DNA of 64,000 bases from Dyella silvae. Lineage in GTDB: Bacteria; Pseudomonadota; Gammaproteobacteria; Xanthomonadales; Rhodanobacteraceae. This document shows, one piece after another, positions 32,862-42,964 of this stretch. Under the pieces are notes generated by a model that did no database searches, was not told where the DNA came from, and saw only the letters and a program-made list of their open reading frames with translations. The number at the start of each line of letters is the position of its first letter. Position 1 is the stretch's first letter. A program made the translations under genes and the position numbers. Location: assembly GCF_026421305.1 (NCBI RefSeq), contig NZ_JAPJBQ010000006.1:124001-188000 (forward strand), given 5' to 3'.

Positions 32862-34061
32862 ATGCCCGTACCGATTCAACCCCTTGCCGTCCGCGCGTAC
32901 ACGGCCACATCGGCGCTCGGCCAAGGTCTCGCAAGTCACTTTGCCGCCCTTTCGAGCCACCGCGGCGGCCTACGCGAAAACGACTTCAGCAGCGCCCCGC
33001 TGGCGTGCTGGATTGGCCGCGTCGCGGGCGTCGAAGATGCCTCGCTGCCGGCTGCCCACGCCGTGTGGGAATGCCGCAACAACCGCCTGGCCTGGCTGGG
33101 CCTGCATCAAGACCAGTTCCTGGATCAGGCGCTGGATGCACGCCAGCGCTACGGCGCCGCGCGCGTCGCGTTAATACTGGGTACGTCCACGGCAAGTATC
33201 GGCGCCACCGAGGAGGCTTACCGCCATCTCGATAGCGCAGGCCTGATGCCACCGGAATTGCGGCGCCCGCTGATTCACGCCCCCCATTCGCTGGCCGGCT
33301 TCGTTGCAGAAGCGCTGGGTCTGGAAGGCCCCTGCCTGACGGTTTCCACCGCTTGCTCCTCCAGCGCCAAGGTTTTTGCGAATGCCGAGCGGTTGATCCG
33401 CCTTGGACTAGCCGATGCCGCCGTGGTCGGTGGCGTGGACACCCTGTGCGACAGCGTGCTGTTTGGCTTTAACGCGCTGGAGCTGGTGTCGCCCGATCCT
33501 TGCCGCCCGTTCGATCAGACGCGTCACGGCATCTCCATTGGCGAGGCGGCCGGCTTTGCGTTGCTGGAGCGCGCCGACGCGGCACCGCATGCGCCGCGGC
33601 TGTTGGGTTATGGCGAATCGAGCGATGCGCACCATATGTCGACCCCGCATCCGGAAGGCCTGGGCGCCGAGCTCGCGCTGCACGATGCGTTGACGAGGGC
33701 CGGCCTTCGTCCGGAGCAGGTGGACTACATCAACCTGCACGGCACCGCGAGCCTCAAGAATGACGAAGTGGAAGCGGCGCTGATCGCGCGTGCCTTCCCC
33801 GCCAGCACGCGTGCCAGTTCGACCAAGGGATTCACCGGCCACACGCTGGGCGCCGCCGGCATTCTCGAAGCGGTCGTCGCGCTGGAGGCGATCCGCCACG
33901 GCCTGGTGCCGGGCAATCTCGGCTGCACGTCGCCGGACGCGGCCTGTGGCCCCCAACTCGCCCTGCAGAGCGAACAGCGGCGCGTCGATATCGCGCTGAG
34001 CAATTCCTTCGGTTTCGGCGGCAATAACGCCTGTCTCGCTTTCGGGAGGGCGCCGGCATGA
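32862..34061 (+). CDS. Beta-ketoacyl-ACP synthase of the aryl-polyene/xanthomonadin-like locus
   Basis: A 399-residue FabF-type ketosynthase that would elongate an aryl-primed chain. The catalytic triad is intact: Cys165 (STACSSS), His293 (NLHGTAS) and His327 (KGFTGHTLGAAG). ATG at 32862 is preferred over the adjacent in-frame GTG at 32859; the open frame extends to 32664 but crosses the divergent gene. The stop overlaps the chain-length-factor-like gene (ATGA). By analogy with aryl polyene systems the two may act as a heterodimer. Confidence 0.92.
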   Translation: MPVPIQPLAVRAYTATSALGQGLASHFAALSSHRGGLRENDFSSAPLACWIGRVAGVEDASLPAAHAVWECRNNRLAWLGLHQDQFLDQALDARQRYGAARVALILGTSTASIGATEEAYRHLDSAGLMPPELRRPLIHAPHSLAGFVAEALGLEGPCLTVSTACSSSAKVFANAERLIRLGLADAAVVGGVDTLCDSVLFGFNALELVSPDPCRPFDQTRHGISIGEAAGFALLERADAAPHAPRLLGYGESSDAHHMSTPHPEGLGAELALHDALTRAGLRPEQVDYINLHGTASLKNDEVEAALIARAFPASTRASSTKGFTGHTLGAAGILEAVVALEAIRHGLVPGNLGCTSPDAACGPQLALQSEQRRVDIALSNSFGFGGNNACLAFGRAPA

Positions 34062-34855
34062 CGACGTTGCAGGTCCATCTGCAAGGCATCGGCTTGTGGT
34101 CGGCCACGCTCGGCGACTTCGCTGCATTTCAGGCGCAGGAGCGGGGCGAGTCCGTACCGGCGCCGGCCGCGCGCCCACCCGCGGCGACGCTGCCGGCCAA
34201 CGAACGCCGCCGTGTACCGGAAAGTGTGTTGCTGGCCGTGGAAGTGGCGGGTCAGGCGGTGGCGATGAGCGGCCACGCTGCGAGCGAAATGCTGTGCGTG
34301 TTCAGCTCCGCCTATGGCGATCAGCTGATCTCCGATTACATGTGCGCGACGCTCGCCCTGGCGCCTGCGGAGCTTTCGCCCACGCGCTTCCACAATTCCG
34401 TACACAACGCGCCAGCGGGTTACTGGACCATGGCCACCGGCTGCCACGCGGCCTCCAGCGCCATCAGCGCCGGCCATGCGAGCTTCGGCGCCGGCCTGCT
34501 GGAAGCGGCCACGCTTTGCGTCGCGGAAGAACGCCCGGTGCTGCTGGTTTGCAGCGACATCGCCGGCAGCGGCCCGCTGGGCGAGATGAGCGGCACGCAT
34601 GCCTCGTTCGGATGCGCCCTGGTCCTGTCGCCCCAGGCCGAAACCGGCAGCCTCGGCCGCCTCGAGCTCACCCTGATGCCTCACGCCGACAAGTCGCTGC
34701 GGCCCGCATTGACCGGTGACACGTGGTACGAAACCAATCCCATTGCCGCATCCGCCTGGCCGCTGATGCAAAATCTTGCAAGAGGCCAGGGAAAGTGCAT
34801 CCTTGCCGCCGCTGAAACCCTGGCTCTGTGCGCCGTCCTGGAGACGCCTGTTTGA
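34058..34855 (+). CDS. Beta-ketoacyl synthase-like protein (chain length factor type)
   Basis: A 265-residue partial ketosynthase fold (N-terminal synthase-like domain, PF13723 type) of the kind paired with a full ketosynthase in aryl polyene clusters. The position of the active-site motif reads MATGCHAASSAISAG, so a cysteine (Cys129) is retained, although the downstream catalytic histidine region of a full enzyme is absent. It probably sets chain length. It is coupled on both sides: ATGA with the ketosynthase and TTGA with the glycosyltransferase. Confidence 0.85.
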   Translation: MTTLQVHLQGIGLWSATLGDFAAFQAQERGESVPAPAARPPAATLPANERRRVPESVLLAVEVAGQAVAMSGHAASEMLCVFSSAYGDQLISDYMCATLALAPAELSPTRFHNSVHNAPAGYWTMATGCHAASSAISAGHASFGAGLLEAATLCVAEERPVLLVCSDIAGSGPLGEMSGTHASFGCALVLSPQAETGSLGRLELTLMPHADKSLRPALTGDTWYETNPIAASAWPLMQNLARGQGKCILAAAETLALCAVLETPV

Positions 34856-35610
34856 ATACGTCCGATACCCGCTGGTGTGTTTTGATCCCCTGCCTCAATG
34901 AGGAAGCGGCGATCGGCGAGGTGGTGCAGTCCGTGCTCGCGCTCGGCGTCCCCGTGATTGTGGTGGACGACGGCTCGGACGACCGCACGCCCGACATTGT
35001 CAGCGCGCTGCCGGTCACCCTGCTTCGCCACCCGCAGCGCCGCGGCAAGGGCGAAGGCCTGCGCACCGGCTTCCGCGAAGCGCTGCGCCAGGGTTTCGAC
35101 GCCGTGCTCACCATGGATGGCGACGGCCAACATCTGGCCAGCGATATCCCGCGCATCGCCGCGGCAGCGCAGCGTTATCCCAACCACATCGTAATCGGCG
35201 CCCGCCTGCTCGACCGCGAGCAGCAGCCCAAGGCCCGGCGCCGCGCCAACGCTGTGGCGGACTGGGGCATTTCCTGGGCTTGCGCTCAACCGGTGATCGA
35301 CACCCAGAGCGGACAGCGCTGGTATCCACGCGCCGCGCTGGATCTGGTGGACCTGCCGGCCGAAAACTTCGTCTTTGAAGCGGCGATCTTGATCGCCGCC
35401 TCGCGCGACAAGGGTTTGGGCGTGGTTTCGGTGCCGATTGCCTCGCGATACCACGGCGAGTTCCGCATCAGCCATTTCAGCCCCGTGCGCGATGTCACGC
35501 GCATCACCACGTACACCGTCAGGCAGATCATCCACCATGGCGACGTCATGGCGAGCTACCGGCGTTCGCGTGCGAGCCGCCCCGTGGTCTTCGACACCGC
35601 CACGACGTAA
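34852..35610 (+). CDS. Glycosyltransferase family 2
   Basis: A 252-residue GT-A enzyme. It has VLIPCLNEEAAIGEVV near the start, the nucleotide-binding DDGSDDRTPD and the acceptor-side TMDGDGQHLASD. There is no clear transmembrane helix, so it is cytoplasmic or peripheral. TTG at 34852 is chosen because it overlaps the preceding stop (TTGA), as do the other junctions of this operon, and ATG further upstream at 34828 lies inside the previous gene. It may glycosylate the pigment or its lipid carrier. Confidence 0.88.
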   Translation: MNTSDTRWCVLIPCLNEEAAIGEVVQSVLALGVPVIVVDDGSDDRTPDIVSALPVTLLRHPQRRGKGEGLRTGFREALRQGFDAVLTMDGDGQHLASDIPRIAAAAQRYPNHIVIGARLLDREQQPKARRRANAVADWGISWACAQPVIDTQSGQRWYPRAALDLVDLPAENFVFEAAILIAASRDKGLGVVSVPIASRYHGEFRISHFSPVRDVTRITTYTVRQIIHHGDVMASYRRSRASRPVVFDTATT

Positions 35611-35635
35611 CCCTTGATGATGCGTGTGCCTGAGA

Positions 35636-35680
35636 GCCTGTTCACGATCTCCGCGTAGCCCGCGTTGTTCGTGAACAGGC
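35636..35680. terminator. Bidirectional terminator between the two pigment operons
   Basis: GCCTGTTCACGA (35636-35647) pairs perfectly with TCGTGAACAGGC (35669-35680) around a 21-base loop, between convergent genes. A second small hairpin, TAAGAG-CGT-CTCTTA (35683-35697), runs into the stop of the minus-strand gene. Confidence 0.65.
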
Positions 35681-35694
35681 GCTAAGAGCGTCTC

Positions 35695-36201
35695 TTAATC
35701 GAGATCGCCCAGCATGGCGTCCATTTTCGGCTGTCCCAACCACTTGGCAATGTCTTCGCCAAGTTCCTTGGACGTGCGATCGAGCACGGAGCAGTTGCCC
35801 TTAAAGCCGGCAAATGCACCACCCATGGAATTGCGCTTGGCTTTGAAACTCGCGACCAGCTGACCACCGTCGTACAGCTTGCCTTTCACCGACATCGACT
35901 TATGGTGGCCCATGAAGGCGTTGCCATCCGAAACAGCGCCGGTAATTTCCATCACCAGCACGCGGTTGGCGCTGCTGGGAGAAACATCTGCCGCGGTTTC
36001 AATCTTGAGTCCGCCATCGTTGCCGAACTTGGCCACGTATTCGGAAAGATGCTCCTCCAACTGACATTCGCGCTTCACCGCTCCGGCGACTTCCGCGTCT
36101 TCGTTGAACGGAATCTTTTGTTGGATGGTGACGACATCCGCGGCGTAAGCCGACTGCCACAGACCAAGCGTGGCAACGGCCACGTACAACAACTTGCGCA
36201 T
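35695..36201 (-). CDS. Unknown periplasmic protein at the end of the pigment operon
   Basis: A 168-residue protein with a signal peptide (MRKLLYVAVATLGLWQSAYA, cleavage near AYA-AD). The mature part contains two cysteines (KRECQLEEHL and FKGNCSVLD) that may pair, and predicted alternating strands. No family is recognised. It starts 56 bases after the dehydratase stop on the same strand. ATG 36201 is preceded by GGAG. It may have its own promoter and no pigment role. Confidence 0.7.
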   Translation of the reverse strand: MRKLLYVAVATLGLWQSAYAADVVTIQQKIPFNEDAEVAGAVKRECQLEEHLSEYVAKFGNDGGLKIETAADVSPSSANRVLVMEITGAVSDGNAFMGHHKSMSVKGKLYDGGQLVASFKAKRNSMGGAFAGFKGNCSVLDRTSKELGEDIAKWLGQPKMDAMLGDLD

Positions 36202-36257
36202 ATCTTGCTCCCTAAGATACGGACCGAACGGTTTCCGGTCGCGAGTATGTAGCAAAG

Positions 36258-36695
36258 TCAGTCCTGCGTGTAGAGCACCGCCGCTCGCCCGCTGACCAGC
36301 AAACGCGCTGCCTGCAGAATACGAAACGCATATTGCGCCCCGCTGTCATCTGCATAGAGACGTTCCGCATAAACGTCCAACCGGCCCCGTGAGTCATCGA
36401 TGTATTCGACATCGATCTGTACATCCCGAAGGCTTACCAAACGCCCTCCCGACCGCTCAACGTCGATGCCTTGAAGACGCGCCAGCAGAGCGCCGTGCAC
36501 CGCAATGGCCTGCGCACCGTGCTCGGCCAAATGCACGGCATGCAAGCCGTTCTCCGAGCGCAGCGGGTGATTGCGCAGTGTGCTCACGTCGGTAATGGCA
36601 TGAATGGTTGCATCGTCCCACGTCACCACGGCATCCAGCAGTGCCATGGCACCCTGATGGGGAATGAGGTGAGCCCAGTCAGTCTTGGCGAGCAT
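36258..36695 (-). CDS. Hotdog-fold 3-hydroxyacyl-ACP dehydratase (ApeP-like)
   Basis: A 145-residue hotdog protein that would dehydrate beta-hydroxyacyl-ACP intermediates of a polyene chain. The N-terminal LIPHQGAMALLDAVVTWDD and NHPLRSENGLHAVHLAEHGAQAIAVH stretches match the dehydratase family of aryl polyene clusters. It overlaps the MMPL gene by 17 bases. A second dehydratase is encoded at 40521-40820, so two enzymes are available for the polyene steps. Confidence 0.85.
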   Translation of the reverse strand: MLAKTDWAHLIPHQGAMALLDAVVTWDDATIHAITDVSTLRNHPLRSENGLHAVHLAEHGAQAIAVHGALLARLQGIDVERSGGRLVSLRDVQIDVEYIDDSRGRLDVYAERLYADDSGAQYAFRILQAARLLVSGRAAVLYTQD

Positions 36696-38997
36696 GCGGA
36701 GCCATCAGGATGGAAAGACAGAAATGGAAAGCGACACCCAGGCTCACCGTGAGGCCAATGGCCCGAAGTACCGGAATCGAACTCCAGGCCAGCATGCCGA
36801 ACACAAGCAGCGCCGAAAGCACGCACACCAGCGTTGCGTGTAGCGTGCGCCGTTGTTCGGCGGCATCGCCCGTATCGCGCTCAAAAAACAGCGCGTAATG
36901 CAGCCCGAGGCCGGCCGCCAGAATCAATGCCACCAGATGGAACAGTGAGACTTCCACTCCGGCAACTCGCTCCACGGCCAGCACCAGAAACGTTGCCAGC
37001 GTCATCGGTGCCAACACGTGCCAGGCACGGCGCAGGCTGCGCAATGCGACCGTAATGGCCACCACCAGCAAGAGCGTCGCCGCGAGCAAGGCATGCAGGA
37101 TGCGTGCTCGGTAATCGACCACCAGCGACTCGGCCGCCCCCTTCAGGTCGAGCAGGCGGACGGCGCCACCGCTCTGCTGTGCAAGCGATTGCAATGCCGC
37201 CACGTCATGCACACCACTCAGCGTGCCCAGGCCGAGCCAATGAGTGTCGCGCTGCACCAGCATGGCGGACAGGCGCTGTCCCAGTGGCGACACGGCGAAG
37301 CGCGCCGGCGTGAGCAATGGCAGCGTGCGCGCCCTCTCCACATCGTCCAGGAATGGAACAAACAGATCGTGCTGGAACGGCATGTCCTGTTGCGCTTGCG
37401 CCAGCGCTTTGTTGAGGGCTGCAGGTTCCGGCAGGCGCTCCTGCCGCGCACGCTGCACGGACGCGCTCGGGAGATAGCGCGAAGGCAGCTCAATGGCGTC
37501 TGCTGCATGTCGGGCCACCAATGCATCCACGGCGGGCTCCAGGCGCTCTGACAGCTCCAGTACACCCTGTTCGCTGGGGGCGTCCAGCACGAGCAGGTAG
37601 CGCACATCCGGTGCGCCGAGTGCCTCTCGCAAGCTCGCGTCACGCTGCAGCAAATCCTTCGGCAGCGGCGTCAGCGCCGACAGGTCGTTTTGCCAGAACG
37701 GGCCTTGTGCGAAAGCGAGCATCACCACAGTGGCGACCGCAACGACCATTGGAATCCACCGTGGCCGGGGCAATGCATCCACCCACTGCCGGGCACGAAT
37801 CAGCCAGCGCATGTCGGCGACATCGTGCACACGCACGGGTAACAGGTACGGCAGGAGGTAGCGCGTACTAAAGCCTGCAACCAGAAGGCCCGTCACGGTG
37901 AAGACTGCCAGCTGCTTCAGCCCGTTCACGCCGGAGGCATAGAACGCCAGATAGGCGATGCACGCCGAGGCAATGGCGGTGAGTAGCAGTGGCCAGAGGT
38001 CGCGAACGCTCTGCACGGCGTCTTCGCCTGCGCGCCGATGGCTGAGTACGCGAATAGGGTATTCCTGTGCGACACCCAGCAAGGTGAAGCCAAACGCGAG
38101 CGTGATGCCATGCACCTGCGGAAACAGCATCACCAGCGCTGCAATACCGGCGAGTGCCGAGCTGGCGATGGGCAAAGCGGAAAGCAGCAACGATCCGATG
38201 CTGCGGTAGGCCAGCAACAACAGCACAACAAAGCCGATCGTGGAGATGCGACCGATCCATTCCGCCTGCCCACGCGTCTGCGCGTTCGCCACGACACTGA
38301 AGTAACCGGGACCACTGAAGGCCAGCGTCGCTCCCTCGTGCCCCGGCAAGGCGTCGAACATGCGCTGGATGCCACTGATCGCTGCGTTCTGCGCATCGGG
38401 ATCAAAGCCTGGCGCACGCGTCATGACCAGCAACAAAGCTTCGTGATTCTTGGAAAACCACACGCCTTCGATCAATTCGGGTGACCTGGCCGGCGCCCAA
38501 CGCTCAGCCAGTTTCAGCACCTCGAGGGTGGGATCTCGCGGCAACAGCCCCTTCAGCAGACTGCCGGCAGGCGAAGAGAGATCCTCCAGTCGCTGCTGTA
38601 GCTCGTCGCGCAAATAGGGCGCATCCAGGCGCTGGTGATCCAGCGTCGGCGAAAGCAGGTATCGGTACGGCAGCAAGCTGCTATCCAATGCCGTGATATC
38701 GAAGCTGCCGTTGAGTACCTGCGTATAACTGTCGTCCTTGCGAAGCGACGCCGCCAGTTGCTGGCTGAGCGATGCCAGCTGTTCATCCGGCTTGCCTGAG
38801 ATGGCGAGCAACAGCAGGCGCGAGCCAGGGCCTTCGCCCACTTGCTCCATCAACAGCTGCTGATCCGGCGTCGTGGGCGCGGGCATGAAGCTGCGCAGAT
38901 CCGTGCTGACGCGCAGGTTCTGGAGCACGAACACAGCGAGCAGCGCCAGCGTCGCCAGCCACAGCACCAGCAGCGTCAGACGACCGCCGCGCTGCAT
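36679..38997 (-). CDS. MMPL/RND-type exporter of the pigment operon
   Basis: A 772-residue transporter with two repeats of a transmembrane block, each with a large periplasmic loop: one helix near the N-terminus (LLVLWLATLALLAVFVLQNL), helices about 255-420, a second start near 445, and helices about 640-770. MMPL exporters move lipid-linked products across the inner membrane. Here the cargo is probably the acylated or ACP-released polyene. The ATG lies 2 bases after the LolA-like stop. Start 38997 is preferred; the frame opens further upstream. Confidence 0.88.
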   Translation of the reverse strand: MQRGGRLTLLVLWLATLALLAVFVLQNLRVSTDLRSFMPAPTTPDQQLLMEQVGEGPGSRLLLLAISGKPDEQLASLSQQLAASLRKDDSYTQVLNGSFDITALDSSLLPYRYLLSPTLDHQRLDAPYLRDELQQRLEDLSSPAGSLLKGLLPRDPTLEVLKLAERWAPARSPELIEGVWFSKNHEALLLVMTRAPGFDPDAQNAAISGIQRMFDALPGHEGATLAFSGPGYFSVVANAQTRGQAEWIGRISTIGFVVLLLLAYRSIGSLLLSALPIASSALAGIAALVMLFPQVHGITLAFGFTLLGVAQEYPIRVLSHRRAGEDAVQSVRDLWPLLLTAIASACIAYLAFYASGVNGLKQLAVFTVTGLLVAGFSTRYLLPYLLPVRVHDVADMRWLIRARQWVDALPRPRWIPMVVAVATVVMLAFAQGPFWQNDLSALTPLPKDLLQRDASLREALGAPDVRYLLVLDAPSEQGVLELSERLEPAVDALVARHAADAIELPSRYLPSASVQRARQERLPEPAALNKALAQAQQDMPFQHDLFVPFLDDVERARTLPLLTPARFAVSPLGQRLSAMLVQRDTHWLGLGTLSGVHDVAALQSLAQQSGGAVRLLDLKGAAESLVVDYRARILHALLAATLLLVVAITVALRSLRRAWHVLAPMTLATFLVLAVERVAGVEVSLFHLVALILAAGLGLHYALFFERDTGDAAEQRRTLHATLVCVLSALLVFGMLAWSSIPVLRAIGLTVSLGVAFHFCLSILMAPHARQD

Positions 38998-38999
38998 GC

Positions 39000-39647
39000 T
39001 CAACCGCCCTGACAGAGCGCTACCAGCGCCTCTCGGGTGGGCGCTGCAGGCATCTTCGCCGCCAGCTCGCCCAACAGGTCGATAGACAAATCGCCATCCG
39101 CTTCTTGCATGCGCATACAACGAGGCTCGTTGCCACTACCGTCGATCTCGATGTGACTGACCGAGCGCGCGAGCTTCGCATCGCGCGGCGTGAGCGTCAG
39201 TGTCCAACGCTTCGCATTGTTGGCGCTGTGTTGCACGGTGAATGCCTGCTCCAGCCGCGAAGCATCGCCGCCCAGCAAGGCGACAAAACTATCCAGAAGT
39301 ATCTGCAACTGCGGTGCGCGCTTGAGCGAGAAGGTCCGTGGCTCACGTCCTTCGCGTTGCTGTGTCACTTCGCCATTGGCAATGGTCGACACTTCGCGAT
39401 TGGGGTGCTCGACCCGTCGCTCCAGCCGATCGTCCCCAAGCCAGGCAAGCTGACCGGAAACCACCAGCGGCTCATCCAACATTTTCATGAAACGCGCTTC
39501 CGCAAACGGCGTGCGCGCGGGCGCCGGGCGCCCCAGCGAGCTCACCAATGCGCGCGCTGTGACCGCGTCTTCAGGCGCCGACGCGTTCGCGCACAGCGAC
39601 AGGATCAACCCGCCCAGGAGCATCCACGTCTTGCTGCCAGAAATCAT
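39000..39647 (-). CDS. LolA-like outer-membrane lipid carrier protein
   Basis: A 215-residue exported protein (signal about MISGSKTWMLLGGLILSLCANA) with the LolA/LolB-type fold expected from RFMKMLDEPLVVSGQLAWLGDD and the following antiparallel strands. It probably shuttles the hydrophobic product or its lipid conjugate across the periplasm, working with the MMPL protein. It overlaps the end of the acyltransferase by 77 bases if ATG 39647 is used; ATG 39623 would reduce the overlap to 53. Confidence 0.78.
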   Translation of the reverse strand: MISGSKTWMLLGGLILSLCANASAPEDAVTARALVSSLGRPAPARTPFAEARFMKMLDEPLVVSGQLAWLGDDRLERRVEHPNREVSTIANGEVTQQREGREPRTFSLKRAPQLQILLDSFVALLGGDASRLEQAFTVQHSANNAKRWTLTLTPRDAKLARSVSHIEIDGSGNEPRCMRMQEADGDLSIDLLGELAAKMPAAPTREALVALCQGG

Positions 39648-40524
39648 AGAAATTGAACCAGTTGTAGGGGGCCACGTGGACGTAGTGTTCCATGCGGCGG
39701 GCAAAGCGGGCGAGCACATCATCCAGTGCTTGCGCACGCTCGTTGCGTGGGATTTCCACACGGTCGGCGAACGGTTCGAAGATCAGGCGGTACCGGTTGC
39801 CGCCCTCGTACAGCCCAAAGCACAGCATCACCGGTACGCGCAGCGAATGCGCGAGCAGCCAGGGGCCCACCGGGAACGGGGCAGGCTCGCCCAGGAAAGG
39901 CGTGCGGCGAAGCACTTCGTGCTCACGGCCGCGATCGGCGAGCAGGGCCACCATCGCGCCCTGTTCACACGCCTCGGACATGGCCAGCGTGATGGACGCG
40001 CCGCCCATCGAGGCATCGATCACCGCGGCGCCGATGTCGGGCGCCAGCGCTTCGAGCAGCTCTGTCATGGCCGGGGTCTTCTGCTTGTCCAGCACCACGC
40101 GCAGGGGAATATCCGGACGGCGCGAACTGATGGCGCGCAGCGCTTCAAAACTGCCCTGGTGCGAACCCAGCAAGAGCAGGCCACGTCCTTGATCGAGGGA
40201 GGCTTCGAGTTCGTCGAGGCCTTCTACGGTGATGTCGAAGCCCTTCTCACCATGGGCCAGCAGAAAAATGCGGTCCAGCGTGATCGCAGCAAAACTGTAG
40301 ATGTGCTTCATCACCTGCCGTGTCGTCGCCGGCTTGCCGAGCACGCGCTCGAGGAAGCGGCGCGAGGCCGTACGCTCCGGGCGTCGACGCAAGTAGAAGT
40401 AGAGCGTGACCGGATACAGCACCAGCCGTCCCAACGGGCGGCCGCCCACCAGCGCGATGGTGCGGATCAGCCACAGCGCAAAATGCCCACCGCCTTCGGG
40501 CCGGCTCTGCCAGTGCTCGCTCAT
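39571..40524 (-). CDS. Lipid A biosynthesis-type (LPLAT/LpxL-like) acyltransferase
   Basis: A 317-residue inner-membrane acyltransferase. The catalytic HX4E motif is in LLLGSHQGSFEALRA, followed by ALLADRGREHEVLRRTPFLGEPAPFP. In aryl polyene and xanthomonadin clusters such enzymes are thought to attach the polyene to a lipid anchor. The start overlaps the dehydratase stop (ATGA). Confidence 0.88.
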   Translation of the reverse strand: MSEHWQSRPEGGGHFALWLIRTIALVGGRPLGRLVLYPVTLYFYLRRRPERTASRRFLERVLGKPATTRQVMKHIYSFAAITLDRIFLLAHGEKGFDITVEGLDELEASLDQGRGLLLLGSHQGSFEALRAISSRRPDIPLRVVLDKQKTPAMTELLEALAPDIGAAVIDASMGGASITLAMSEACEQGAMVALLADRGREHEVLRRTPFLGEPAPFPVGPWLLAHSLRVPVMLCFGLYEGGNRYRLIFEPFADRVEIPRNERAQALDDVLARFARRMEHYVHVAPYNWFNFYDFWQQDVDAPGRVDPVAVRERVGA

Positions 40525-40820
40525 GCGGCGCCCTCGACCGTGCCTCGCGCAATCGCGACATCGTTCCGGCGAATCTCGAAACGCACACGCCCGTTCACAT
40601 CGGTCAACACGACTTCGGCGACCTGCTGCGGCAACAGCGGCGCCACAAACTTTGCTTCCACGATGCGCGCCAGACGCTCGCCTCGCCACAGACGCAACGC
40701 GTTTGCCACGTGCTCCAGCAACAGCACGCCGGGCACCAGCGGCGAGCCGGGGAAATGGCCAGGCAGGCAAGGATGGTCGCCCGCTACCTGGAACGCGTGA
40801 TGAAAGCTCGCCGAGGTCAT
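40521..40820 (-). CDS. FabA/FabZ-like hotdog dehydratase (ApeI-like)
   Basis: A 99-residue hotdog protein with DHPCLPGHFPGSPLVPGVLLLEHV, the FabZ signature including His22. It is shorter than FabZ (about 150), as is typical of the ApeI class. ATG 40820 overlaps the stop of the upstream membrane-protein gene (ATGA), and its stop overlaps the acyltransferase start, so it is tightly coupled on both sides. Confidence 0.87.
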   Translation of the reverse strand: MTSASFHHAFQVAGDHPCLPGHFPGSPLVPGVLLLEHVANALRLWRGERLARIVEAKFVAPLLPQQVAEVVLTDVNGRVRFEIRRNDVAIARGTVEGAA

Positions 40821-41539
40821 TTCGAAGCGGGATCTTCGCCACGCACCAGTTGCGGCCAGCGCGCCGCAACGCCCAGTGCCAGCGCATGCAGGCGGGGGTG
40901 CTCGATGTGTCGCAGATGCCAACGACGGAACACGTTTTCCAGCAGAAACGCCGCGGCAATCAACCCATAGCCGCCCAGATGCATGTACGACTGCGCCAGT
41001 GCCGCAGGCACCGGCCACGGCGAGGCGATGCCTAGCGCATACAGCAAGCCGCCCGGCTCGGCGCACAGCAACAGCACGGCAAGCACCCCTGCCTGCGCGG
41101 CGGTAAGCAGCGTCCAGAACCATGTGAGCTGGCGGGCATAGCGCGCCACGCCCGGAACCTGCAGCTGGCCGGCGCCTTCCACCGCCGCGATGAAGCGCGC
41201 GATCAAAGGCGTCGATCCGGCGCGCAGACTGCGCCCGAACAGCGAAGCCAGCAGCACGTTGATCGCAATAGGCACGCACTCGAGCAGCAAACCCACCATG
41301 CCATGCAGCCACAACACCGCCACCACGGCCAGGGTGAGCGTCCAGCCAATCCAGGACCGCGGCCGGCGCGCGGCAAGACCCGGCAGCATCAGCAAGGTAA
41401 GCAGCAGCACACAGGCGGCAAGCGAGAAACCCTCGCGATGGGTGAGCACACCGGCCATCGCCAGCACCGGATAGGCGAACATCAACGGCAGCCAGCGCCG
41501 TGATACCGATCGCAGTGGGGAGACGGGTGATTGCGACAT
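40817..41539 (-). CDS. COG4648-type integral membrane protein of the pigment operon
   Basis: A 240-residue protein with about six predicted helices (for example FSLAACVLLLTLLMLPGL, LTLAVVAVLWLHGMVGLL, LLTAAQAGVLAVLLLCAEPGG). Members of this class are known mainly from aryl polyene and xanthomonadin clusters; the role is undefined. It follows the ACP gene by 79 bases and is coupled to the dehydratase gene by a 4-base overlap. Confidence 0.75.
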   Translation of the reverse strand: MSQSPVSPLRSVSRRWLPLMFAYPVLAMAGVLTHREGFSLAACVLLLTLLMLPGLAARRPRSWIGWTLTLAVVAVLWLHGMVGLLLECVPIAINVLLASLFGRSLRAGSTPLIARFIAAVEGAGQLQVPGVARYARQLTWFWTLLTAAQAGVLAVLLLCAEPGGLLYALGIASPWPVPAALAQSYMHLGGYGLIAAAFLLENVFRRWHLRHIEHPRLHALALGVAARWPQLVRGEDPASK

Positions 41540-41618
41540 AGGTGGCTCAGCCTGCCTGGTCTCGAACGGGACGCGGCGAAAGTCTGCCGTGTGCGAGCCG
41601 CATCATGCCCGATCTTGC

Positions 41619-41909
41619 TTAAACGGCACGATGCCGTTCGATGTGCTCGGACAACGTGCGCAGGCTATTGAAGATCTTGCGGTTCTCAGGATTGTCCGAC
41701 CGCAGCTGGAACCCGTACCGCTTGGACACGGCCAGCGCGACTTCCAGCGCATCAATGGAATCCAGGCCGAGATCGCCGCCGAACAAGGGGGCATCGGGGT
41801 CGATCTGGTCGGCCGTCACCGTTTCCAGATTGAGGCTTTCCACGATCAAAGTGGCCAGTTCGTGTTGTGCGGTGCTCTGCTCGACCATGCTGGTCCATAC
41901 CTGATACAT
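41619..41909 (-). CDS. Acyl carrier protein of the pigment operon
   Basis: A 96-residue dedicated acyl carrier protein that would hold the growing aryl polyene as a thioester. The phosphopantetheine serine lies in GGDLGLDSIDALEVAL. GGGAGAGGGGC immediately before ATG 41909 supports that start over ATG 41888. It is the first gene of the minus-strand operon and is divergent from xanB2, 68 bases away. Confidence 0.93.
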   Translation of the reverse strand: MYQVWTSMVEQSTAQHELATLIVESLNLETVTADQIDPDAPLFGGDLGLDSIDALEVALAVSKRYGFQLRSDNPENRKIFNSLRTLSEHIERHRAV

Positions 41910-41977
41910 GCCCCTCTCCCCCAGAGGCGACGGCCTACAAGTGTAACATAGCGACCCCTACCCCCATTTCTAATGCC

Positions 41978-42964
41978 ATGGTTCTGGGTTGTGAAAACGT
42001 CAGGCTGGCGGAGCGCCGGGCCCCTCAGGTGTCCTACCGGCACGGTGCTCCGGAATCGGTATTGAAGGAACCTGGCACCCTCGCCGTGTTCGGGTTTGGC
42101 ACCGGCGCGGTCCTCAGCGACGATCCACGCTGGCTGAGGGTGGACCTGGAGAGCTTCGACGCCCCTGCAACGCTGGAGCTCTGGCAGGTCGACGGGCCAG
42201 TGACTCACGGAAGGGTGGGCGACCTGCAGTGGTCAGCGGGCGAGGGTTGGCTGTTTGCGGCCATGACCCTTAACGAAGAGGTGCATGGCGGGCCCGGCAA
42301 CACCGCCGCCTCGGTCTACGCCCAGTTGCGCGAGTTCCTCGCGACCCGGCATGAACGCTACGTGCAGCGCATCTGGAATTACCTGGGTGACATTAACCGG
42401 GGCGAAGGCGACATCGAGCGCTACAAGCAGTTCTGCGAGGGCCGTGCCGAGGGCATGGGCAACTTCTTCGCCGACGGCTTTCCGGCCGCTACCGCCATCG
42501 GACACCACGCATCCGAACCGCGCCTGCAGGTCTACGTGCTGGCTTGCGATGAACCCGGCGTGCGTGTGGAGAATCCCCGCCAGGTCAGCGCGTGGCGCTA
42601 CCCACGCCAGTACGGCCGGACGCCACCCAGCTTTGCGCGCGCGATGGCCCTGCCCGGACAGGACGCGCTGGCCATCTCAGGCACAGCCGCCGTGGTCGGC
42701 CACGCCTCGACCCATGAGGACGACCTGCTGGCTCAGCTGGACGAAACCCTGGTGAACCTCGAAGCGTTGCTGGCGAACGCCGGCATGGCCGCGGGATTCG
42801 ACACGCAGTCGCCGCTCAAGGCGTACGTGAGGCATCCCACCGACGCGCCCATCGTGCGCGACTTCATGCAGCGCCGCCTGCCCGGCGTTCCGGTGCTACT
42901 GCTGCACGGTGACATCTGCCGCCAGGAACTGCTCGTCGAGATCGACGGCTGGCGTTACGCGTAA
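41978..42964 (+). CDS. xanB2: XanB2-type chorismatase (chorismate to 3- and 4-hydroxybenzoate)
   Basis: A 328-residue chorismatase. In Xanthomonas, XanB2 turns chorismate into 3-hydroxybenzoate for xanthomonadin and 4-hydroxybenzoate for ubiquinone. Family segments seen are RYVQRIWNYLGDINRGEGDIERYKQFCEGRAEG split across the middle domain, and the C-terminal LLHGDICRQELLVEIDG. ATG 41978 gives the expected size; the preceding frame runs through the divergent promoter, and no strong ribosome binding site is seen. It is divergent from the acyl carrier protein gene. Confidence 0.92.
   Translation: MVLGCENVRLAERRAPQVSYRHGAPESVLKEPGTLAVFGFGTGAVLSDDPRWLRVDLESFDAPATLELWQVDGPVTHGRVGDLQWSAGEGWLFAAMTLNEEVHGGPGNTAASVYAQLREFLATRHERYVQRIWNYLGDINRGEGDIERYKQFCEGRAEGMGNFFADGFPAATAIGHHASEPRLQVYVLACDEPGVRVENPRQVSAWRYPRQYGRTPPSFARAMALPGQDALAISGTAAVVGHASTHEDDLLAQLDETLVNLEALLANAGMAAGFDTQSPLKAYVRHPTDAPIVRDFMQRRLPGVPVLLLHGDICRQELLVEIDGWRYA

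Follow-up and report, generated by a model that had tools for sequence, protein, structure and literature searches.

A xanthomonadin-type pigment locus of Dyella silvae without its own ketoreductase, and a second aryl polyene cluster as its putative partner

The stretch of DNA analyzed here (the window: 64,000 nucleotides, C19:124001-188000 of the 4.45 Mb Dyella silvae genome, G000) contains a pigment locus at window positions 32862-42964, with hemF and glmU bordering it, one on each side. By homology, this is a xanthomonadin-type aryl polyene locus, its product being predicted, without a ketoreductase (KR) of its own, and the question it raises is which enzyme would carry out the beta-keto reduction. 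From gene comparisons we consider it highly probable that the window locus forms one half, of the xanthomonadin type, of an aryl polyene system whose two loci pool enzymes, the KR being borrowed from a second, unlinked cluster on contig C15 and an aryl ligase being lent to that cluster.

Ketoreductase and ligase of the two loci

In relatives of the window locus the xanthomonadin-type (xan-type) KR gene sits between the genes for a GT2 glycosyltransferase and the first dehydratase, as it does in the loci of Xanthomonas, Lysobacter and Stenotrophomonas. In the window this position is occupied by a gene for a small secreted protein (35695..36201, minus strand). Three KR queries found no match at E<=1, either within the window or in its flanks (20 kb upstream, 15 kb downstream), so that a KR concealed there was rejected, and no remnant of a xan-type KR was detected at 35401-36400. 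Because relatives carry the xan-type KR at the same spot, we concluded that the window locus has lost its own. Among the best 80 of 564 named loci, 45 had a xan-type KR, four had an ApeQ-type KR (as in the C15 cluster) and 31 had none; some of these 31 were on short or cut contigs, and others were full-length Rhodanobacteraceae loci like that of the window. A genome from the same genus (G013) had a broken xan-type KR at the ancestral site, in two pieces, one of which contained a TGA, and with the middle missing, as well as an ApeQ-type KR. Gene content, positions and losses, and likewise this remnant and the ligase stub and co-occurrence described below, were read directly from the sequence.

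The original prediction held that neither an aryl:acyl carrier protein (ACP) ligase nor a KR was visible in the locus, that the missing steps were encoded elsewhere, and that the genome should be searched for such a ligase and for a KR beside ACP and ketosynthase (KS) genes. The absence of the KR was upheld, whereas the ligase turned out to be displaced, not absent, and the search located both: the ligase on C19, and an ApeQ-type KR in the C15 cluster. A PF00501 search of the G000 genome gave eight matches. Three lay within 2175-2432-aa frames on C21, judged from frame length to be like nonribosomal peptide synthetases (NRPS); three more proteins matched acetate, propionate and 3-(methylthio)propionyl-CoA ligases, and another was FadD-like by eye. 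The eighth match was a 461-aa XanA2-like ligase (C19:194183-195568), by homology a candidate aryl:ACP ligase outside the cluster, 6.2 kb downstream of the window and separated from xanB2 by 27 kb. The ligase queries gave only short matches (E 0.1) within the window and the full ligase downstream, and the view that the ligase is truly missing was rejected on the strength of this candidate. Ligase homologues were present in 112 of the 117 family genomes (E<=1e-50; not in G004, G020, G023, G097 and G099). Displacement is thus common in the family, these homologues being frequently located tens of kb away from the KS, if not on a separate contig; in three Stenotrophomonas loci and one of Xanthomonas massiliensis (L072, L078, L082, L087) the ligase adjoined xanB2. 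In G028, a ligase homologue at C217:16508-17761 was in two pieces, from either a broken gene or an assembly error.

The C15 cluster (L018/L019) is of the other aryl polyene type (hereafter APE). It has genes for a KR, an ApeP-like dehydratase, a KS, a methyltransferase, an LPLAT acyltransferase, an ApeI-like dehydratase and a membrane protein, together with PlsC, a chain-length-factor-like protein (CLF), two additional KS, an MMPL-like exporter, LolA, a GT2 and an ACP, so dehydratases and MMPL/LolA-type export genes occur at both loci of G000. The KR (C15:799696-800421) is ApeQ-type; its nearest solved structure is 7caw (324.4 bits), and by eye it retains the equivalents of Arg148, Arg174 and Leu185 of Acinetobacter baumannii ApeQ. 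A xan-type KR (P0002) retains both arginines and has Val at 185. No ApeH-type ligase was found in the C15 cluster, only a C-lobe stub at the N-terminus of the ApeI-type dehydratase (39.8% over 83 aa; 39.7 bits, the highest score among 500 shuffles being 28.9). A similar stub was seen by eye in 17 of 34 listed relatives, the others being without it. In G004, which has only an APE locus, a full ligase-dehydratase fusion was present in a single frame, and G099 had the same fusion across several frames; no ligase was seen in the other APE loci read, which came from 47 genomes in all (the G015 locus being cut by a contig end).

In the proposed pathway, XanB2 would make 3- or 4-hydroxybenzoate from chorismate, the displaced XanA2-like ligase would load it onto ACP, and the KS-CLF pair of the window would extend this aryl starter. 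Because the window locus has lost its own KR, the reduction of beta-keto groups is tentatively assigned to the ApeQ-type KR of C15; the C15 cluster, having lost its ligase core, would in turn depend on the displaced C19 ligase. What the enzymes do, whether the cell shares them and which product results we infer by comparison.

Co-occurrence of ketoreductase types with the xan-type ketosynthase

The genomes compared comprised 117 of the family and 20 of the genus, nine being common to both (128 in total), with family search thresholds of E<=1e-75 for the ApeQ-type KR and E<=1e-65 for the xan-type KR. Seven genomes without a window-type KS (G002, G004, G017, G023, G028, G056 and G099) were set aside. 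In the remaining 121 genomes the two KR types excluded one another: 42 had only the ApeQ-type, 75 only the xan-type, none had both and four had neither (Fisher p=2.5e-28, kinship ignored). The genus subset held to this without exception (six ApeQ-type and 14 xan-type, n=20). Of the 46 genomes with an ApeQ-type KR, 42 retained the window-type KS. A broader statement, that the xan-type KS is never lost, was abandoned, since the genomes had been selected for possessing it.

Two of the genomes set aside (G002 and G028) had both KR types, the xan-type match being just 56-57% and lying beside a different KS. These extra genes (C5:365402-368582 in G002 and C88:20943-24123 in G028; KS match 43%) occur in addition to a full APE cluster and may represent a third class of aryl-polyene-like loci.

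No further KR of either type was found in the four genomes with neither, their best matches reaching only 43-46%. The APE site of G106 is at a contig edge, with LeuDH at base 44 of the contig; the G114 assembly consists of 830 contigs and is 87% complete; and the G025 locus was read over just 7.6 kb. Because these three are edge-cut, fragmentary or briefly read, only G022 is a clean exception.

Reciprocal losses and alternative explanations

Losses were also found on the APE side. Among 41 two-locus genomes judged (G015 excluded because of the contig end), nine had lost the ApeO-type KS and the CLF of the APE locus (G003, G006, G011, G033, G053, G062, G068, G112 and G117), and in these the ApeQ-type KR was still open and of full length. 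The losses amounted to six changes on the tree. In G003, G006 and G062 the KR was the lone remaining APE gene in the 20 kb read, and G011, G033 and G112 retained further APE genes, including KS2 and KS3. LeuDH was present in the same stretch in eight of the nine pruned loci (within 8 kb in six), as in 41 of the 47 APE loci overall, and from this shared neighbor we infer pruning in situ; the exception, G006, had a KR of 66% identity and no LeuDH in the stretch. In seven of the 28 xan-KR genomes in which LeuDH was sought, an ACAD-LeuDH stretch was found without any APE match at E<=0.01.

The export genes were similarly distributed. The exporter with LolA was present at both loci in ten of the 41 two-locus genomes, at the xan locus only in ten, at the APE locus only in 21 and at neither in none (Fisher p=0.00016, kinship ignored). 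Two rows (G069 and G095) are weak, as the stretch fetched may not cover the whole xan locus; omitting both changed the counts to 10, 10, 19 and 0 of 39.

In three named loci (L047, L049 and L093) a xan-type KS-CLF pair, a ligase and an ApeQ-type KR (64-75%) were found in one stretch without a xan-type KR, and a fourth stretch (L089) was shorter and its KR partial. KS3 was present in these stretches, but an APE KS-CLF pair of its own was not seen there. The L049 contig and that of L034 are labelled Candidatus Planktophila and Eremiobacteraeota, respectively, carry pigment loci that look proteobacterial, and are probably mis-binned.

On balance, we favor the view that reciprocal loss has merged two aryl polyene clusters, unlinked and differing in type, into one distributed and mutually dependent pathway. 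The xan side would have given up its KR, its exporter genes in many relatives and its dehydratases in a few; the APE side would have given up its ligase, along with the KS-CLF pair in some genomes. The relatives could then represent stages, from an intact xan locus only, through overlapping loci and partly pruned pairs, to a lone KR left of the second cluster.

Several observations weigh against this view. When kinship was corrected for, only six independent pairs were available, of which four changed in the expected direction, two showed no difference and none was opposite (p=0.125); the tree used was a quick one of 90 genomes, in which good support was obtained for 31 of the 87 inner branches and on which the two labels change eight and six times. 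An earlier tree of 80 rows gave three pairs in the expected direction, two without difference and none the wrong way (p=0.25). The dehydratase counts (32, 5, 5 and 0 of 42, and 30, 6, 5 and 0 of 41) were at chance level (Fisher p=1). The APE loci were located via their KR, so that KR-less remnants were under-sampled, and G022 shows that such remnants exist. Its APE site keeps LolA, MMPL, a membrane protein and two dehydratases, all lacking from its xan stretch, and has no KR; this complementary gene set fits a cluster merger, yet G022 is the one clean KR exception. In favor of the view, a control read from the KS search, to which this sampling bias does not apply, gave 35 of 117 genomes with an APE-type KS match (E<=1e-60), and 34 of these had an ApeQ-type KR; the sole exception, G017, had a broken ApeQ-type KR and no window-type KS. 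Finally, G020 holds both loci and showed no xan-type ligase at E<=1e-50, its 30 AMP-binding matches having been examined in part.

Three other explanations were considered. It is unlikely that each locus makes a polyene of its own with a role of its own, the orphan ApeQ-type KR being kept for an unrelated job. Both KS-CLF pairs are indeed kept in G000 and in 32 of the 41 two-locus genomes, but the search yielded a single plausible aryl ligase to serve both loci, the xan-type KR is missing from every one of the nine genomes whose APE locus is reduced, and two products made with one common KR and one ligase would still amount to enzyme pooling.

A supply of the reduction by housekeeping FabG, for which the missing KR would need no special source, is very unlikely, and the suggestion in the original prediction that primary fatty acid synthesis provides this step was not supported. 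In a study of the Acinetobacter system, A. baumannii FabG in the place of ApeQ gave nearly no product in vitro (PMC8041823), and the FabG of G000 (P0005) has, by eye, Pro and Phe at the places of ApeQ Arg148 and Leu185. G000 does have further FabG-like reductases among the matches listed, and G022 retains its xan KS-CLF pair without a dedicated KR of either type; a FabG supply would, however, leave unexplained the survival of the ApeQ-type KR where the rest of the APE cluster has vanished. We judged FabG an improbable source because an ApeQ-type KR is present in the second cluster, the comparative pattern tracks it, and FabG failed in vitro. Least credible is a decaying, KR-less xan locus with pigment made by the C15 cluster alone: although the xan locus has lost further genes in G007, G041 and G082, and the CLF matches of G106 lie in two pieces on opposite strands, the window pigment genes are open reading frames with active-site motifs in the KS (TACSS, HGT and GHT) and the ACP (DSI), the C15 cluster is without a ligase, and the window-type KS was kept in the 42 of 46 genomes noted above, whereas the APE KS-CLF pair was lost in nine of 41.

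If the merger is real, it would show how split pathways can arise through the stepwise redundancy of two clusters with like products, a step then surviving at one locus only. The natural losses would also suggest parts exchangeable between cluster types, the KR and exporter being best supported and the dehydratases perhaps included, and they caution that calling a cluster incomplete from its neighborhood alone can mislead.

Gene content and comparison with known systems

All genes in the original list were found at their places and in their order. On the plus strand, the xan-type KS (32862..34061; NF006618, 499.6 bits against a cut-off of 407; Cys-His-His motifs) lies beside the CLF (34058..34855; PF13723), followed by the GT2 (34828..35610; PF00535, start uncertain), as expected of a xanthomonadin-type locus. 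Among solved structures, the KS and CLF come closest to 6qsp, chains A and B, which we take to be ApeO-ApeC. The KS is 69-79% identical to its close named matches in Rhodanobacter, Frateuria, Dyella and Luteibacter, which puts the genome in the Rhodanobacteraceae. The small secreted protein, absent from the original list, has no Pfam match and belongs to no known family (start read by eye); homologues occur within the pigment regions of G014, G039, G059 and G098 and of L039, L061 and L096.

Also on the minus strand are genes for an ApeP-like hotdog dehydratase (36258..36695; PF22817, a weak 21.8 bits under the cut-off of 27), an MMPL-family exporter (36679..38997) and a LolA-like carrier (LolA_3; 39000..39620), both with approximate starts, an LPLAT acyltransferase (39571..40524), a FabA-like dehydratase (40521..40820; 24.9 bits against a cut-off of 23), a membrane protein (40817..41539) without a Pfam or NCBIfam match, and the ACP (41619..41909; NF006617). 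The FabA-like dehydratase weakly resembles the ApeI-type dehydratase of C15, and the membrane protein likewise its C15 counterpart. The XanB2-type chorismatase (41978..42964, plus strand; start inferred, longest frame from 41867) is a putative assignment by homology, at 192.6 bits, below the TIGR04444 cut-off of 325. A search limited to homologues of the C15 methyltransferase, and not aimed at methyltransferases as a class, found none in the window or its flanks. The earlier assignment to a xanthomonadin-like aryl polyene locus agrees with the KS and CLF, which are of the aryl polyene kind, and its suggestion of a lineage-specific variant was borne out.

Other loci were observed in G000 and its relatives. 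At C21:2196-14455, G000 has a likely NRPS/polyketide synthase cluster (L003, L004, L007, L016), in which AMP-binding and ketosynthase matches fall in very long frames. In one genus (g6; L113, L116, L117, L118, L123) the xan locus is split, with KS-CLF-GT2 beside hemF and the xan-type KR elsewhere, ~30 kb from the ligase. An Aquabacterium stretch (L091) contained two xan-type KS-CLF pairs and one KR.

Among the papers listed by searches of an open literature collection, none gave an account of such a cluster merger. The Xanthomonas pig and Lysobacter enzymogenes yellow loci share with the window a KS with adjacent CLF-like protein, a GT2, two dehydratases, an acyltransferase, LolA, an exporter and an ACP; they differ in having the KR inside the cluster, whereas the window locus has none and its ligase is 27 kb away (PMC3691225). 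In Lysobacter the KR is ORF13, and the ORF13 mutant was described there as pigmentless (PMC3691225). Around the place of the missing KR, Xanthomonas and Lysobacter contigs have the gene order of the window.

The C15 cluster resembles the APE clusters of E. coli and Acinetobacter in its consecutive ApeO-, ApeP- and ApeQ-like genes, its CLF and two additional KS, and its methyltransferase and MMPL-like exporter; it differs in having no ApeH-type ligase, only the C-lobe stub on its ApeI-type dehydratase (PMC8041823, PMC8253772, PMC8358021). Azoarcus arcuflavin is a single pigment encoded by two unlinked arc loci that are both required, arcK and arcT mutants being colorless (PMC3949708). Like G000, Azoarcus has two unlinked loci, a XanB2-type enzyme and a ligase; its arc loci, however, are halves of one set, whereas G000 has two overlapping cluster types with different losses (PMC3949708).

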